From contig JAISSX010000019.1 in assembly GCA_031272885.1 (NCBI GenBank), forward strand, positions 1 through 64,000: a stretch of DNA of 64,000 nucleotides, in the 5' to 3' direction. The notes under the pieces are model-generated. The model was not told the DNA's origin. It worked only from the letters and a program-made list of their open reading frames with translations, and ran no database searches. The position numbers and the translations under genes were made by a program. This stretch comes from Bifidobacteriaceae bacterium (GTDB lineage: Bacteria > Actinomycetota > Actinomycetes > Actinomycetales > WQXJ01). Below, one piece after another: positions 1,450 through 27,079 of the stretch. How positions within the stretch are numbered: position 1 is the stretch's first letter; the number at the start of each line of letters is the position of its first letter.

Positions 1450-2238
1450 CTACTTGATGGCCCCTGCCGCCATGCCCCGCTCGAACTGCTTCTGGAGGCA
1501 GACGTAGGCGATGATCTCAGGCAGAGCCGCCAAAGTTGCTCCAGCCAGAACCTTCGGTTGGTCATCGGTGTAGCGAGCCTTGAAGTTCATCGGCAACTGG
1601 GACACGACCTGCTGGCCCTCGCCGGGCAACAAGACGAGCGGCAGCAGATAGGCGTTCCACGAGTTGATCAAGACCAGAACGATGATGGCCATGCCCATCG
1701 GCTTGGCCAACGGGACCAGGATCGACCAGAACTGACGCCACGTGCCTGCGCCGTCGATTCGGGCCGCCTCGAACAGAGAATCCGGGATGCCATCCACATA
1801 GGAACGGGTCAACAGCGTGGTGAACGGGATCTGCATCGCCGCCAACGGGATGATGACCGACCACAACGTGCCGCCAATGCCCGTCTTCTGCGCCATCATC
1901 AGCATGGGAGTCAGCAGAACCACCTCGGGCATGGTCAACGCGCCCATCATCAGCCAGAAGTAGACCTCCTTGGAGCGGATACGCAGTTTGGAGAAGCCGA
2001 AAGAGGCCGCCATGGTCAGGAAGTAGCAGATCGCGATGGTCGCCACAGCGATCAACAGAGAGTTGCGGAAGTAGGTCCAGAAGCCGGGCAGTTGGAGAGC
2101 GGCCTTGTAGTTGTCGATCCCCCGGCCCTGGAATGACGTGTAAACCATCGTGTACAGCGGCACGATGAACGGTATGACAAGCAGGACGCTGATGCCGGTC
2201 AGAAGCAGGCGCTTGCGGCGGCCTCGAAGCTCGAACAC
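1450..2238 (-). CDS. Sugar ABC transporter permease, MalG/CUT1 type
   Basis: 262 aa inner-membrane permease of the carbohydrate uptake type 1 family, with about six hydrophobic segments and a short cytoplasmic N-terminus (RGRRKR). The EAA loop that docks the ATPase is clear: EAARIDGAGTWRQFW followed by PLAKP near residue 150-165. The start is GTG and overlaps by one base the TAG stop of the upstream permease (TAGTG), so the two are translationally coupled. No ATPase gene is in the operon; CUT1 systems of actinobacteria often share a single MsiK-type ATPase encoded elsewhere. Confidence 0.92.
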   Translation of the reverse strand: MFELRGRRKRLLLTGISVLLVIPFIVPLYTMVYTSFQGRGIDNYKAALQLPGFWTYFRNSLLIAVATIAICYFLTMAASFGFSKLRIRSKEVYFWLMMGALTMPEVVLLTPMLMMAQKTGIGGTLWSVIIPLAAMQIPFTTLLTRSYVDGIPDSLFEAARIDGAGTWRQFWSILVPLAKPMGMAIIVLVLINSWNAYLLPLVLLPGEGQQVVSQLPMNFKARYTDDQPKVLAGATLAALPEIIAYVCLQKQFERGMAAGAIK

Positions 2239-3287
2239 TAGACCTTCACCTCCTCCGGCTTACGCTCGCGCGACATGACGGTCATGATGATCGAGACGCC
2301 TATGGCAAGCACAAGCAACAACATGGACATCGAGGCGGCATAGCCGAAGCGGCCGCCCTTCTCGAACATCTCCGAATAGATGTAGGTGCCGAGGAACTGA
2401 GACGCGTTGGCCGGTCCACCGGTTGTCACCAGGTAGGGGTAATCGAACAGCTTGAGGGCTGTGATCGCGTTCAGCACAGCCAACGACACGATGGTCGGTT
2501 TCAGTTGCGGAATGATCACCGACACCAGCACACGGATGTTGCCGGCACCATCGATGCGCGCGGCCTCAAGCACCTCGGGGTCGATCTGGCCCATGGCGGC
2601 AAAGAAGAGGATGAACGCCATACCGATCGAACTCCAGATCTGGATGCCGATCACAACCCACAGGGCGGTTGATGGCTGGATCCAGTTGGGGGAGACACTG
2701 GACAAACCGATGTGGTCCAACACCCACTGGAACCAACCGTTCCAGGCCGGATTCTTGCCGGTTGGATCCGCATGCAAGAAGCCGAGGTGGGCCAGGATCC
2801 AGTTCAATGGTCCGTCCACGGCGAACACTCGTCGGTGGACAGGAGACATGATGGCCGGCGCCACCACCACCGGAACAAAAATCAGGATCTTGAAGATGAC
2901 TGAGCAGTACACCCTCGAGTGCATGATCGCCGCGAAGACGATCCCCATCACCGTCTGCACCAGGTAGACCGCGATGAAAAAGATGAGAGTGTGTTTGAGG
3001 CACTCCCAGAACAACGGGGTGCTGAAGGCTCGCGCGAAGTTGCCCAGCCCCTCGACCACCTCTTCCTTCGGTGGCCGCCAGTTCCAGGGCAGCAACGAAA
3101 CATACCCGGTGTAACCGATGCAGAAGTAGATGACGCCAACCGCCATGACGAAACCGGGTAAGACCCAGGTCATACCGGCTGGTACGCCGTGGTAGCGGCG
3201 CTTGGCAGCACCACCACTGCGGCGACCAGACCCGGCGGAAGAAGCGGCTGGCGATTTCACAGTGATCGCCATGTCTTCCTGCCTCAT
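2238..3287 (-). CDS. Sugar ABC transporter permease, MalF/CUT1 type
   Basis: 349 aa partner permease. A basic, Ser/Gly-rich N-terminal tail of about 35 residues precedes the first membrane helix. The EAA motif is LEAARIDGAGNIRVL, then PQLKP. The frame allows a start five codons before ATG-Ala-Ile-Thr (MAITVKS), which would give 344 aa; I cannot decide between them. It sits 81 bases downstream of the binding-protein gene with a strong hairpin between, and overlaps the next permease. Confidence 0.92.
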   Translation of the reverse strand: MRQEDMAITVKSPAASSAGSGRRSGGAAKRRYHGVPAGMTWVLPGFVMAVGVIYFCIGYTGYVSLLPWNWRPPKEEVVEGLGNFARAFSTPLFWECLKHTLIFFIAVYLVQTVMGIVFAAIMHSRVYCSVIFKILIFVPVVVAPAIMSPVHRRVFAVDGPLNWILAHLGFLHADPTGKNPAWNGWFQWVLDHIGLSSVSPNWIQPSTALWVVIGIQIWSSIGMAFILFFAAMGQIDPEVLEAARIDGAGNIRVLVSVIIPQLKPTIVSLAVLNAITALKLFDYPYLVTTGGPANASQFLGTYIYSEMFEKGGRFGYAASMSMLLLVLAIGVSIIMTVMSRERKPEEVKV

Positions 3288-3331
3288 TTCGAATTCAGAT
3301 AGCCATGCCTTGGCTGGACTCAGTTGGGAAA

Positions 3332-3362
3332 GGTGGGTGGCCGGCGCGGCCGGCCACCCACC
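3332..3362 (-). terminator. Intercistronic hairpin between binding protein and permeases
   Basis: Perfect 14-bp stem (3332-3345 with 3349-3362, GGTGGGTGGCCGGC and its complement) around a 3-base loop, just after the stop of the binding-protein gene and before the permease genes. No T-run follows. Such hairpins in ABC operons usually act as partial terminators or mRNA stabilisers that keep binding protein in excess over permease; that role is inferred. Confidence 0.65.
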
Positions 3363-3368
3363 GAGGGG

Positions 3369-4825
3369 CTAGCCCGTGTAGGGCTCTGAATCCGCCTGCA
3401 TCTGAGCCACGATGTCCTCGATCGACATGTTCGGATCGGACAGCAGCTGCTGCACGGCCACCACCTGAGCAGTCGCCGTGGCAGGGGTCTGCTTCTCGTT
3501 GCGGGACTCGGTTGCCTGCGCCGCCGTCTGGAACATCTCTTGGAAGATCGGGATCTGGTAGTCGGGATCAACCAGGCCAAGGTTCTCCCAGTCCGGGTCA
3601 ACGCCGAAGCTGGGCACCAGGTCGATCGCGTTGTCGACCGCCAGTTGGCCGGCCTCGGTAGATGTCAGCCACATGACGAAGACTGAGGCCGCCGCCTTGT
3701 TCTTGGAATCGGCCGCGATGGCCAGGCCATAGTCGGCTTCGCCCACGTACGGCGGCACGTTGCCCTTACCCGCGAAGTCCGGCGCCGGAATCGGGATCAT
3801 GACGAACGGTTCCGGGTTCGAGACGCCGGCGCCCTCAGCGCTCTCGATCTGTGATTCAGCGACGGCGTACTGGGCATACCACGTGCCCATCTGGACAATC
3901 GCGGCCTTCTGCGCCATGAAGTTGTTGTTCGCCTCCGGATACTGCTTGATCGATGTCGCGTCAGCAGAGATGATGCCGTCGGTCTGCATCTGACGAAGTA
4001 TCTGCATCGCTTCGATGGCGGGAGCTTCATCCCATTGGCGCTCACCCTTGAGCGCGGCCGCGTAGTAGCCTGGCTCGACCGAGTCGCAAATGGTCCGCCA
4101 GGTCTCGGCGGCGAAACCATCCATGCCGTTGGCGCCCATGGTCCAGCATTGAATGCCGGCGGCACTGAACTTGTCGCAGGCAGCCTTGAGGTCGTCATAG
4201 GTCTTGAGGCTGAGAGGATCGATGCCCTGGGCGTCGAACAGATTCTTGTTGACCCAGACGAAGTCGGAAGCAACGCCACCCAGCGGCAGGGAGACCACGC
4301 TGCCCTTCCAGGTCAGTTGGTCAACGTAACCGGTGGCGTACTTGTTCTTCCAGTCCGAACCCAGCCAGGCCTCCGCCTGAGCGCTGAGATCCATGGCATA
4401 GTCAGCCCACAGTTCACGCCCGGCGATGGAGCCACCTGGGGCAATGTTGAAGACATCAGGGCCGCTGCCGGCCTGGAAGGCCGAAGTCAGGGCGGGGGGA
4501 TAGTCGGTGTTCTCGAAGTTCTTGTAGGTGACTTGAATGTTGGGATAGACCTCGTTGAATGCGGCGATCCACTTCTCGCCAACGGTCGTGTCCGGCGCGT
4601 AGGCCCACCAAAGGACTGAGCCGGAAATGCTGGCGGCGTCTTCTTGGGTCACAACGTCGCCTGCTGACGCCGCCTCTCCGCCGGATGAGTCAGTGGCGCC
4701 ATCGGAAGTCACTGCCTGGGAAGAGTCTTTCTCATCACCCCCCCCCCGCCGCAGGCAGCCATGCCTACGGCAACGGCTGCAACGGCGGCCGCAGCGAACA
4801 GTGAACGAATGGTTGTAGTTCGCAT
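3369..4825 (-). CDS. Sugar-binding lipoprotein of ABC transporter, frameshifted
   Basis: Extracellular solute-binding protein, family 1 type. The mature part (readable from 4712 down to 3369, 447 aa) has the expected fold features, for example WWAYAPDTTVGEKW and a GSGPDVFNIAPGG segment. The true start is ATG at 4825 with GAAAGGAA ahead of it; it encodes a lipoprotein signal peptide ending in GMAAC. These two parts are in different frames: ten Gs (minus strand, 4738-4747) would have to be 8 or 11 to join them. Translating from 4825 as given stops soon after the run. So the gene is broken, phase-variable, or mis-sequenced. A GTG at 4712 would give a protein lacking any export signal. Confidence 0.85.
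4738..4747. repeat. Ten-base C/G homopolymer inside the binding-protein gene
   Basis: Ten consecutive C (G on the coding strand), immediately after the lipobox Cys-Gly codons. It is the only place where the two reading frames of the gene can be joined, so gain or loss of bases here switches the protein on or off. Confidence 0.9.
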
Positions 4826-4959
4826 TGCTGGGTTCCTTTCACTTCGTTGTGATCAGGCGCACAGTGCGTGCTCCCCACCGGGAACGCCAAGCTTAACTCC
4901 GGGCCTACCGAACCAACCGTCACGGCAGGGGTCGATGACCTGCGTCCCCGGATACGGAC

Positions 4960-4999
4960 AGTCTAGACCCTTGTAGAAGCCGAGCGAACGAACGTTCAC
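4960..4999 (-). promoter_or_regulatory. Possible promoter and operator of the sugar operon
   Basis: Minus strand: TTCGCT (4988-4983), 17 bases, TAGACT (4965-4960). The -35 region carries GAACGTTC (4990-4997), a small palindrome typical of sugar-operon repressor sites. The -35 match is weak; read as a suggestion. Confidence 0.35.
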
Positions 5000-5030
5000 C
5001 CAAGCCCCGTCAACCCCGGTTAATGGGCCA

Positions 5031-5062
5031 GGCGCGCCGGCCCATCGTTGGGCCGGCGCGCC
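5031..5062 (-). terminator. Intrinsic terminator after the NlpC/P60 gene
   Basis: Perfect 14-bp stem, GGCGCGCCGGCCCA (5031-5044) with its complement (5049-5062), loop TCGT, 25 bases past the stop of the hydrolase gene. No clear U-tract, as often in high-GC actinobacteria. Confidence 0.75.
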
Positions 5063-5087
5063 TTGGCGTCTAACTATTGGGAGGGGA

Positions 5088-5855
5088 TCAGAACCGTAGG
5101 AAGACCGGCGTACGGTACATCTCGCGGAACTGGACGTAGGAACCGGTATGCGGGGAGTCAATCATGATGTTGCCGCCCGCGTAGATGCCCACATGGCCCG
5201 GGAACCACACGATGTCACCCGGTTGGGCCTGATCGCGCGACACCACCGTGCCGGCGTTGCGTTGACCCGAATCGGTCCGTGGGATGGACTTGCCGGCTTG
5301 CGCGTAGACGTACTGCGTAAAGCCCGAGCAGTCGAACCCGGAGGGGCTTGAACCGCCATAGACGTACGGCACGCCTTCGTACCGTGCGGCGATTTCCAGA
5401 ATCGTGTTGCCGGCCACCGTTTGCGGCGGGGCCACTTGGCCCGTTTGCGCACCCGATTGGGTCGCGACCGCAGTGCGGACGGGCGCCGCCTTGCGGATCG
5501 TGATCATCTCGGGTTCTGGTTCCGGCTCCGGCTCAGTAATGATGATCTCAGGCACCTTGAGGGTCCAGGTTGCCGTGGCCGGAGCGGACGCCAACGACTG
5601 GGCGCCGATCACGGAAGCGGCTGAACCAGTCAGCGCTGAGGCCTCAACCGAAGTACCGACCCTGACAGGCACGGCATTGGGTGCGGCTGTGGGGGCGGCA
5701 GCGAATGCGGGCACGGCACCCATCAACAGACCAGACCCCGCCACGACGGCGACGGTCTTGTGACTCACCGCGCCGGCCTGAGCGGCCAGGGCGGTAAGTG
5801 GGGTGACGGGCTTGCCTTCCGCGCGATGCCGGGGGGCAGCATTCCGTGTTACCAC
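5088..5855 (-). CDS. Secreted NlpC/P60 peptidoglycan hydrolase
   Basis: 255 aa. N-terminal signal peptide/anchor: basic start, hydrophobic run at about 33-54 ending in AFA-A. Then a linker with EPEPEPE (108-116) and a C-terminal NlpC/P60 domain from about residue 150. The Cys-His-His triad is Cys176 (FDCSGF), His221 (GHVGIY) and His236 (SPHTG). Such enzymes cut gamma-D-Glu-diaminopimelate type bonds in peptide stems. The start is GTG with AAGGAGA 5 bases ahead, at the end of a c-di-AMP riboswitch, so expression is probably tied to cell-wall and osmotic state. No LysM or SH3 domain is visible. Confidence 0.9.
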   Translation of the reverse strand: MVTRNAAPRHRAEGKPVTPLTALAAQAGAVSHKTVAVVAGSGLLMGAVPAFAAAPTAAPNAVPVRVGTSVEASALTGSAASVIGAQSLASAPATATWTLKVPEIIITEPEPEPEPEMITIRKAAPVRTAVATQSGAQTGQVAPPQTVAGNTILEIAARYEGVPYVYGGSSPSGFDCSGFTQYVYAQAGKSIPRTDSGQRNAGTVVSRDQAQPGDIVWFPGHVGIYAGGNIMIDSPHTGSYVQFREMYRTPVFLRF

Positions 5856-25762: not shown

Positions 25763-27079
25763 ATGGAAACGCCCAACCTCCACTTCCGCACCGCCCCGGT
25801 CAAGCTGCCCCGCCCGCTGGCCACCACTCTGGCCCAGCCCGGCCAGGCCGCCGACGAGCCGATGGTGTGGCTGCGCCGTGGTGAAGGCACCGTGGCTTGG
25901 GGCCAAGCGGCCGGCCTGGAAATCACCGGGCCGGACCGGTTCGGCCAGGCTGCGGCCTGGTTCTCGGACGTCATTGCGGCCGCCCAGGTGGAAGGCCCCG
26001 GCGGCGGCAGCCAGGTGCCAGGCATGTGCCCGATGGCGCTGGGTACCTTCAGTTTCGCGGACAACTCCGCCATGCCCTCCCGCCTGGTGATTCCGGCGGT
26101 GGCCGTGTCGCAGCGGCGCGGCATCGACTGGATTACCACCGCCGCTGTGGGCGAGGCGCCCAACCCGCTCGCCATCTGGCAGGCGATAGCGGCCAGCGCC
26201 ACCGACAACCCAGCGCCCCTGCCGGCCATGCAAGAACTGCCTGGCCACCACTCAGCCACCACCTGGCCGGACGTGATAGCCGAGGCCTTGGACGCCATCG
26301 GGCACCGGGTGGTGGACAAGGTGGTGCTGGCGCGTGACGTGCTGGCTACCGCCGCCCAGTCGGTTGACCTGCGGACGGTGGCCCTAAGCCTGGCCGGCGC
26401 CTACAGCAACTGCTGGACCTTCCTGCTGGACGGCCTGGTGGGCGCCACCCCTGAACTGTTGGTGCGCAGCGCCCGCGGCCTGGTCACCTCGCGCGTGCTG
26501 GCGGGCACCATCCGGCGGACGGGCGATGACGTGGCGGACCTGGCAAGGGCGGCCTCGTTGGCGCGGTCATCCAAGGACCTGGAGGAACACCAATTTGCCG
26601 TTGAATCGGTGGTGCAGGCGCTGCGGCCGTTCACCGAAGAACTGTCCGTGCCCGATGCCCCCTCGGTGCTTCACCTGCCCAACGTGATGCATCTAGCCAC
26701 CGATGTGGTGGGTGATCTGATTGGGCGCGACCTGGCAGGTGGCCACGGCAGCGCCCCGGCCTCGCTGGTGCTGGCCGGGGCCCTACACCCCACCGCCGCC
26801 GTCTGCGGCACACCCAGGCAGGCTGCCTTCGAGTTGCTGGAACACCTTGAACAGGCGGACCGGGGCCGCTACAGCGGGCCGGTCGGTTGGATGGCGGCCG
26901 ATGGCGCCGGCGAATGGGGCATTGCCCTGCGTTGCGCCCAGTTCAACCAAGACCGCCGCCAAGCCCAGTTGTGGGCCGGCGGCGGCATTGTGGCGGCCTC
27001 GGACCCGGCCGGTGAACTGGCCGAGACCGAGGCCAAGCTGGCGCCAATGCGCCAAGCGTTGGGTCTAACGACGGTTTAG
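25763..27079 (+). CDS. menF: Isochorismate synthase
   Basis: 438 aa chorismate-binding enzyme that makes isochorismate, the entry step to menaquinone. Conserved C-terminal core: VDKVVLARDV, TPELLVRSARG, SRVLAGTIRR, SSKDLEEHQFAVESV, LHPTAAVCGTPRQAA and GPVGWM. EntC-type siderophore synthases share the fold, but men context decides. ATG start with a weak ribosome site; TATTGT at 25748-25753 could be the -10 of a short-leader mRNA. Ends tail to tail with the protease gene, stops overlapping by 4 bases. Confidence 0.92.
   Translation: METPNLHFRTAPVKLPRPLATTLAQPGQAADEPMVWLRRGEGTVAWGQAAGLEITGPDRFGQAAAWFSDVIAAAQVEGPGGGSQVPGMCPMALGTFSFADNSAMPSRLVIPAVAVSQRRGIDWITTAAVGEAPNPLAIWQAIAASATDNPAPLPAMQELPGHHSATTWPDVIAEALDAIGHRVVDKVVLARDVLATAAQSVDLRTVALSLAGAYSNCWTFLLDGLVGATPELLVRSARGLVTSRVLAGTIRRTGDDVADLARAASLARSSKDLEEHQFAVESVVQALRPFTEELSVPDAPSVLHLPNVMHLATDVVGDLIGRDLAGGHGSAPASLVLAGALHPTAAVCGTPRQAAFELLEHLEQADRGRYSGPVGWMAADGAGEWGIALRCAQFNQDRRQAQLWAGGGIVAASDPAGELAETEAKLAPMRQALGLTTV

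Follow-up and report, generated by a model that had tools for sequence, protein, structure and literature searches.

The window analysed here, a stretch of 64,000 nucleotides, carries a run of ten C at positions 4738–4747 of the forward strand, i.e. ten G on the coding (minus) strand read from 4747 to 4738. An ATG at 4825 on the minus strand, preceded by a likely ribosome-binding site recognised by inspection of the sequence (AAAGGA, 4834–4839), opens MRTTTIRSLFAAAAVAAVAVGMAACG, and the tract follows directly. Positions 4748–4825 of the minus strand comprise the start codon, the signal peptide and the lipobox (MRTTTIRSLFAAAAVAAVAVGMAA-C-G). The signal peptide is of the lipoprotein type and ends in A-A-C-G, with the ten Gs next. 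By our own lipoprotein criteria, applied without SignalP, the locus (L203) qualifies, with a score of 2.58 for the hydrophobic region and the ending ...MAA-C.

The mature protein lies in a different frame, which is stop-free over positions 3369–4736 of the minus strand and has its first ATG, GTG or TTG at GTG 4712, downstream of the tract. No usable alternative start for this frame was found upstream of the tract, where there is only a single near-cognate CTG. A sequence-only reading of this DNA had stated that the signal peptide (from 4825) and the mature frame (from 4712) are connected only via the ten Gs and that 8 or 11 Gs would restore the frame. Translation shows the first statement to be exact and bears out the second: the assembled ten Gs give a frame of 38 amino acids (4709–4825, minus strand; the OFF product) and nine Gs one of 29, while 8 or 11 Gs yield products of 484/485 amino acids. 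Among the lengths 7–13 tested, 8 and 11 are the only ones at which the lipobox cysteine and the solute-binding protein share one frame; at 7, 9, 10, 12 and 13 Gs translation ends after 29–39 residues. The run is a coding-region homopolymer above the 8–9 bases expected of a poly-G phase-variable gene, and its length sets the reading frame.

In profile searches the mature part from GTG 4712 matched SBP_bac_1 (E 3.9e-24) and SBP_bac_8 (E 4.6e-20). The solute-binding domain PF01547 scored 86.6 bits against a cut-off of 26 and covers most of the mature part. The receptor frame is free of stops for 447 codons, its domain is intact, and its third-position G+C (GC3) is 0.79 compared with 0.77–0.86 in the next three genes. 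On the minus strand, domain matches identify two ABC sugar transporter permeases of the BPD_transp_1 type (2238–3287 and 1450–2238) and a zinc-dependent alcohol/polyol dehydrogenase-type enzyme (309–1343), whose gene is the last before the contig start. The SBP domain, the lipobox and the two adjoining BPD_transp_1 genes (1450–3287) mark the product as the solute-binding lipoprotein of an ABC sugar transporter. The tract-bearing gene is the probable head of an SBP-permease-permease-dehydrogenase operon, to which the dehydrogenase gene at 309–1343 probably belongs as well. Scans for promoter and terminator consensus sequences in the region 3200–5300 found none.

No other G or C homopolymer in the window is as long as the tract. 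With a G+C content of 67%, a dinucleotide model predicts 13.6 runs of at least 8 G or C in the 64 kb, and a single one is observed; long runs are therefore avoided in the window and the survivor stands out. A purpose-built HMM found no further frameshift in the 64 kb. Each of its three transitions could be explained, two by overlapping genes (19742/19808 and 44870/44873) and the third, judged by position only, by a gene end (27093). The tract itself was missed by the HMM because the short signal-peptide part was left outside its coding segments.

The window's assembly (G000) consists of 81 contigs, is 95% complete and probably represents a gut relative assembled from short metagenome reads. 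At least 31 runs of at least 8 G were listed in it (from 100 of 108 overlapping matches; the 31 runs account for 107 of them, implying one further 8-G run), and 19 of the 31 are no more than 400 nt away from a contig end. These end runs occur on contigs C1, C5, C9, C17, C24, C36, C44, C45, C46, C54 and C72, mostly inside G-rich stretches, and look like assembly debris, the other reading being true G-rich breakpoints. Among the 12 internal runs of at least 8 G in this list, the window tract alone was found behind a lipobox. A cluster of G-runs (18, 16 and 11) within a span of about 90 nt lies inside contig C23 (6348–6433; L082). The draft genome G012 has the most runs of at least 9 G (78) among 39 genomes compared, and G020, an order-mate with a single 1.8-Mb contig, is second with 45.

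In G000 itself, several other runs lie in or near genes. Two paralogous secreted proteins each have a pair of runs (C6, 8578–8587 and 8818–8826, L267; C54, 113–121 and 356–367, L268). In each, a 9-G run lies within the signal peptide and is in frame, for more than 1,400 codons in the C6 protein and as far as the contig edge in the C54 paralogue. The C6 copy matches 3-keto-disaccharide hydrolase and Big_2 and, weakly, beta-helix and GH141 models. The intergenic run upstream has 10 Gs at the C6 gene and 12 at its C54 paralogue, and promoter-type phase variation at these intergenic runs is possible. Ten Gs are also found on contig C59 (185320–185329; L086), 47 nt 5' of the ATG of a small secreted protein without Pfam match, which an ABC ATPase gene follows; the sequence CAGGT(C/A)A immediately 5' of the Gs is common to this locus and both intergenic runs. 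Acyltransferase-3/SGNH-type enzymes are often surface-modifying, and a fused gene of this type on contig C28 contains a 9-C run in frame (26143–26151; L270). An 8-G run on contig C70 (104118–104125; L089) lies in an open frame ahead of a citrate synthase domain, possibly outside the true coding region.

Eight paralogous receptors of the same genome are without a G-run and carry mixed glycine codons or other residues behind the cysteine. No orthologue with the same tract was found in 59 genomes (own included); in the other genomes the best matches reach 61–62% identity and are tract-free. The sole congener among the genomes compared (69% complete) offers best matches of 47% identity at full length and 57% over a part, and a scan of named genomes returned two Bifidobacteriaceae MAG relatives (isolates Pcl387_bin33 and Nc350_bin167) at 45–46% identity. 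When the own family (18 genomes, own included) was scanned for a Cys codon with a G-run, 34 places were listed, and the window was, by eye, the sole lipoprotein among the 30 whose loci were read (L237–L266).

Parallel tracts were found outside the own family. The search pattern was Ala/Gly-Cys-Gly codons with 7 or more Gs behind them. A site was retained if it had a start codon, a hydrophobic stretch and an A/G/S/N-C junction, and if at one tract length or another the frame stayed open for 150 codons or more. In family f4 of the same order (189 genomes of 16 genera), which we take to be the Bifidobacteriaceae and to which G020 also belongs, this pattern gave 25 sites. All were examined and seven are lipoprotein-like: six have 10–14 Gs and are out of frame without exception, while the seventh, with 7 Gs, reads in frame. 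The six comprise one orthologue in three genomes (G325, 12 G; G401, 14 G; G402, 13 G) and one receptor each in G454, G455 and G484 (10 G each). A second, wider pattern matched at 30 places in these 189 genomes. All were examined, the lipoproteins being picked by eye (L291–L293 and L299 were set aside for want of a start or a long frame). The pattern recovered the first three and one new lipoprotein, in G550 (genome 76% complete), with lipobox CSGGG and 11 Gs, out of frame. Both patterns require the Cys codon and the G-run within about two codons of each other, so that tracts deeper in the linker fall outside their scope. The family thus holds five further genes, in seven genomes, with 10–14 Gs at the lipobox, all of them out of frame and all encoding solute receptors.

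According to profile matches the receptors belong to SBP_bac_8 (G454), SBP_bac_5 (G455), SBP_bac_1/8 (G484) and Peripla_BP_4 (G550). The G325-type receptor is without Pfam or NCBIfam match and reaches E 6e-153 against solved family-1 solute-binding proteins (6fth, 3omb, E about 1e-152). Two BPD_transp_1 permease genes come after the receptor in G325, G454 and G484, and behind them a GH43, DUF2961 or melibiase-type gene; in G455 the SBP_bac_5 receptor precedes two ABC ATPases and two permeases. Homologues of three of the tract-bearing receptors in other species (G450 and G467; G160; G490; 42–77% identical) are tract-free, as are those of the G325-type receptor at 36–44% identity where the lipobox is readable. 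The tract therefore comes and goes over evolution, the three sister species excepted.

Wider scans covered the order and the class. Across the order (396 genomes; 50 places, all examined) there are four lipoproteins with 7 Gs, the 12-G tract of G325 (L112) and the 10-G tract of the window; G325 and the window are the only lipoproteins there with at least 8 Gs. The class-wide scan covered 393 genomes at least 90% complete (own included) and 31 places, all examined, and revealed no lipoprotein with at least 8 Gs in the 392 other genomes. A Fisher test of 6/189 in f4 vs 0/392 gave p 0.001, or p 0.011 with the three orthologues counted once (4/189), though it ignores the remaining phylogeny and the two samples are unlike in lineage and in the quality of their assemblies. 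Within f4 the pattern as such shows no enrichment (25 sites vs 19 for the reversed control pattern); the point is what sits at the sites. Four of the five lipobox lipoproteins with 7 Gs (L107, L130, L139, L148, L185) can be read in frame without ambiguity. The fifth, L148, is open over long stretches in each of the three phases; the script called it out of frame, yet its CGGGDDAG... runs for 386 codons in the present frame. L185 is a second lipoprotein of G402 (C1, 255001), about 50 kb from the 13-G receptor, and its in-frame 7-G run is perhaps an early stage of tract growth.

The off-frame gene can be compared between the three sister species. Around the tract, 4.5 kb of G325, G401 and G402 are 94–95% identical. 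The 508 post-tract codons differ, per pair, by 58.5–72.5 synonymous vs 10–18.5 non-synonymous changes, and dN/dS in the post-tract frame is 0.037–0.070. These values indicate that the G325-type gene is used although it is off in every assembly. Judged from the sequences, it must be translated in at least part of the population or by some reframing, unless all three assemblies are wrong.

We consider it probable that the ten-G tract is a contingency locus which switches sugar uptake phase-variably. The proposal starts from what is directly seen, namely the tract, the frames, the intact receptor, the gene order and the parallel tracts in other species. Slippage in DNA replication would gain or lose Gs, and roughly every third length (8, 11, 14) would give a membrane-anchored sugar-binding lipoprotein (ON), and lengths of 7, 9, 10, 12 and 13 an early stop (OFF). 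OFF would probably, by polarity, lower both permeases and the dehydrogenase too, so that a single tract would govern, cell by cell, how one sugar is taken up. The assembled ten Gs would represent the commonest (OFF) length in a source population that presumably varies, and by analogy with Bifidobacterium breve a minority of cells would express the operon of the window. The benefit may lie in spreading sugar choice over cells, or in escape from phages or bacteriocins that use the receptor.

Runs at the same place in other receptor genes of related bacteria suggest a recurring on/off switch rather than a lone sequencing mistake. The case for phase variation is partly supported: it has gained from the five parallel receptor genes in relatives and from the purifying selection that one of these shows across three species. 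The tract-free state of the eight paralogues and of the homologues in other species weighs against it. A broader generalisation, for and against which we see the balance as about equal, is that in bifidobacteria-like actinomycetes poly-G contingency loci have arisen repeatedly in the Gly-rich linker directly behind the lipobox cysteine; importers would have gained 10–14 Gs independently at their receptors and clonal populations would mix active importer sets. All eight lipobox tracts with at least 10 Gs (the window and seven others) are out of frame. Random phase would place one third in frame, and (2/3)^8 = 0.04, a figure that assumes independence although three of the eight are orthologues. 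A shared cause other than random phase is therefore possible, such as systematic miscounting or slippage expression; selection for OFF in the dominant cell, or transcriptional slippage, would either of them account for the eight.

An error of sequencing or assembly, with a true tract that is stable and in frame (e.g. 11 Gs) and was miscounted by short reads, had been rated equally likely. This was too pessimistic, and for this one assembly we now hold an error to be unlikely, though of appreciable probability. It would fit the fragmentation into 81 contigs and the G-rich contig ends, and the assemblies of two relatives carry 'k119' contig names, which we take to be typical of a short-read assembler. 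Illumina reads are, moreover, reported to go wrong at G-tracts in the available part of PMC9187656. Against an error speak the 9-G and 9-C runs of the same assembly that stay in frame (the two secreted paralogues and the acyltransferase), the lack of any second frameshift found in the 64 kb, and the out-of-frame parallels in near-complete genomes of other species, including the single-contig genomes G402 and G484. Even with a wrong count, a tract of 11 Gs would still be slippery.

Alternatively, slippage of RNA polymerase or the ribosome might provide a constant low dose of full-length receptor despite the frame. If the off-frame state still yields protein, both the eight off-frame tracts and the selection that kept one protein intact in three species would follow. 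However, in B. breve (PMC9187656) an off-frame stop strongly cuts downstream transcription, and pilus-like structures were observed in in-frame derivatives and not in the parent. The sister species differ in tract length as well (12, 14 and 13), whereas a programmed site would be expected to keep its length, and we regard this explanation as very unlikely. A young pseudogene with a fixed frameshift, the loss of which paralogues could compensate, would explain the broken frame but is most improbable, since stops, domain and GC3 revealed no decay beyond the frameshift itself, leaving the idea of a pseudogene with other lesions without support.

If the switch is real, sugar choice in these bacteria would depend in part on hypermutable tracts at the lipoboxes of receptors. 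Strains that grow differently could then differ by a reversible phase instead of a lost gene, and genome annotation would wrongly label such operons as broken. Tract lengths at read level in existing samples would show which nutrients, or which receptor-using phages, matter in the gut.

HmbR and HpuAB, the phase-variable haemoglobin receptors of Neisseria meningitidis (PMC3786947), are nutrient receptors that a poly-G tract within the coding sequence turns on and off, as is proposed here. They differ from the receptor of the window in being outer-membrane receptors of a proteobacterium. Closer in lineage is Cutibacterium acnes (PMC3224659, in part), where the length of G/C tracts at genes of actinobacterial surface proteins varies between strains and one alternative reading places the tract in the N-terminus; the proteins there are adhesins with tracts in the promoter or at the 5' end, while ours is a lipoprotein receptor. 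In the related actinobacterium Gardnerella, tracts of at least 8 bases lie in or before surface genes with transporters among the products, and length changes are reported at colony level (9 or 10 bases) and, by Sanger sequencing, in a GA-module protein gene; the word 'lipoprotein' is absent from the main text (PMC11287997). Homopolymers near gene starts have also been proposed as a general regulatory device, there with A/T tracts (PMC2831843, in part).

The nearest system is that of the bifidobacterial pili, for which a poly-G switch based on replication slippage has been published in B. breve (Penno et al., 2022; PMC9187656, here from part of the text). The reference genome has 11 Gs at one locus, a length given for many bifidobacterial pilus switches; cultures contain about 37% G11 and 60% G12, and the switch has polarity on downstream genes. 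As in the window, the gene is the first of its operon, and an ORF with the Sec signal and an ORF for the mature protein lie in different frames and are joined only via the G-tract, which in that paper's table has 8–13 Gs. The second ORF likewise lacks a proper start and the reference genome is off-frame. In contrast to the pili, the target here is the sugar-binding lipoprotein of an ABC importer, the tract lies directly behind the lipobox cysteine, and it is known from one assembled length. Among actinobacteria, poly-G switching is established in bifidobacterial pili, and there are indications of it in Gardnerella and at the adhesins of C. acnes. The sequence-only reading had said that turning a surface sugar receptor on and off would be unusual in actinobacteria, which, going by PMC9187656, PMC11287997 and PMC3224659, fails for the mechanism and may hold for the target. 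Among the best literature matches listed (open-licence papers), none described a sugar-binding lipoprotein with such a switch at its lipobox. The best reading is that the design is the one known from bifidobacterial pili and that the kind of target is new.
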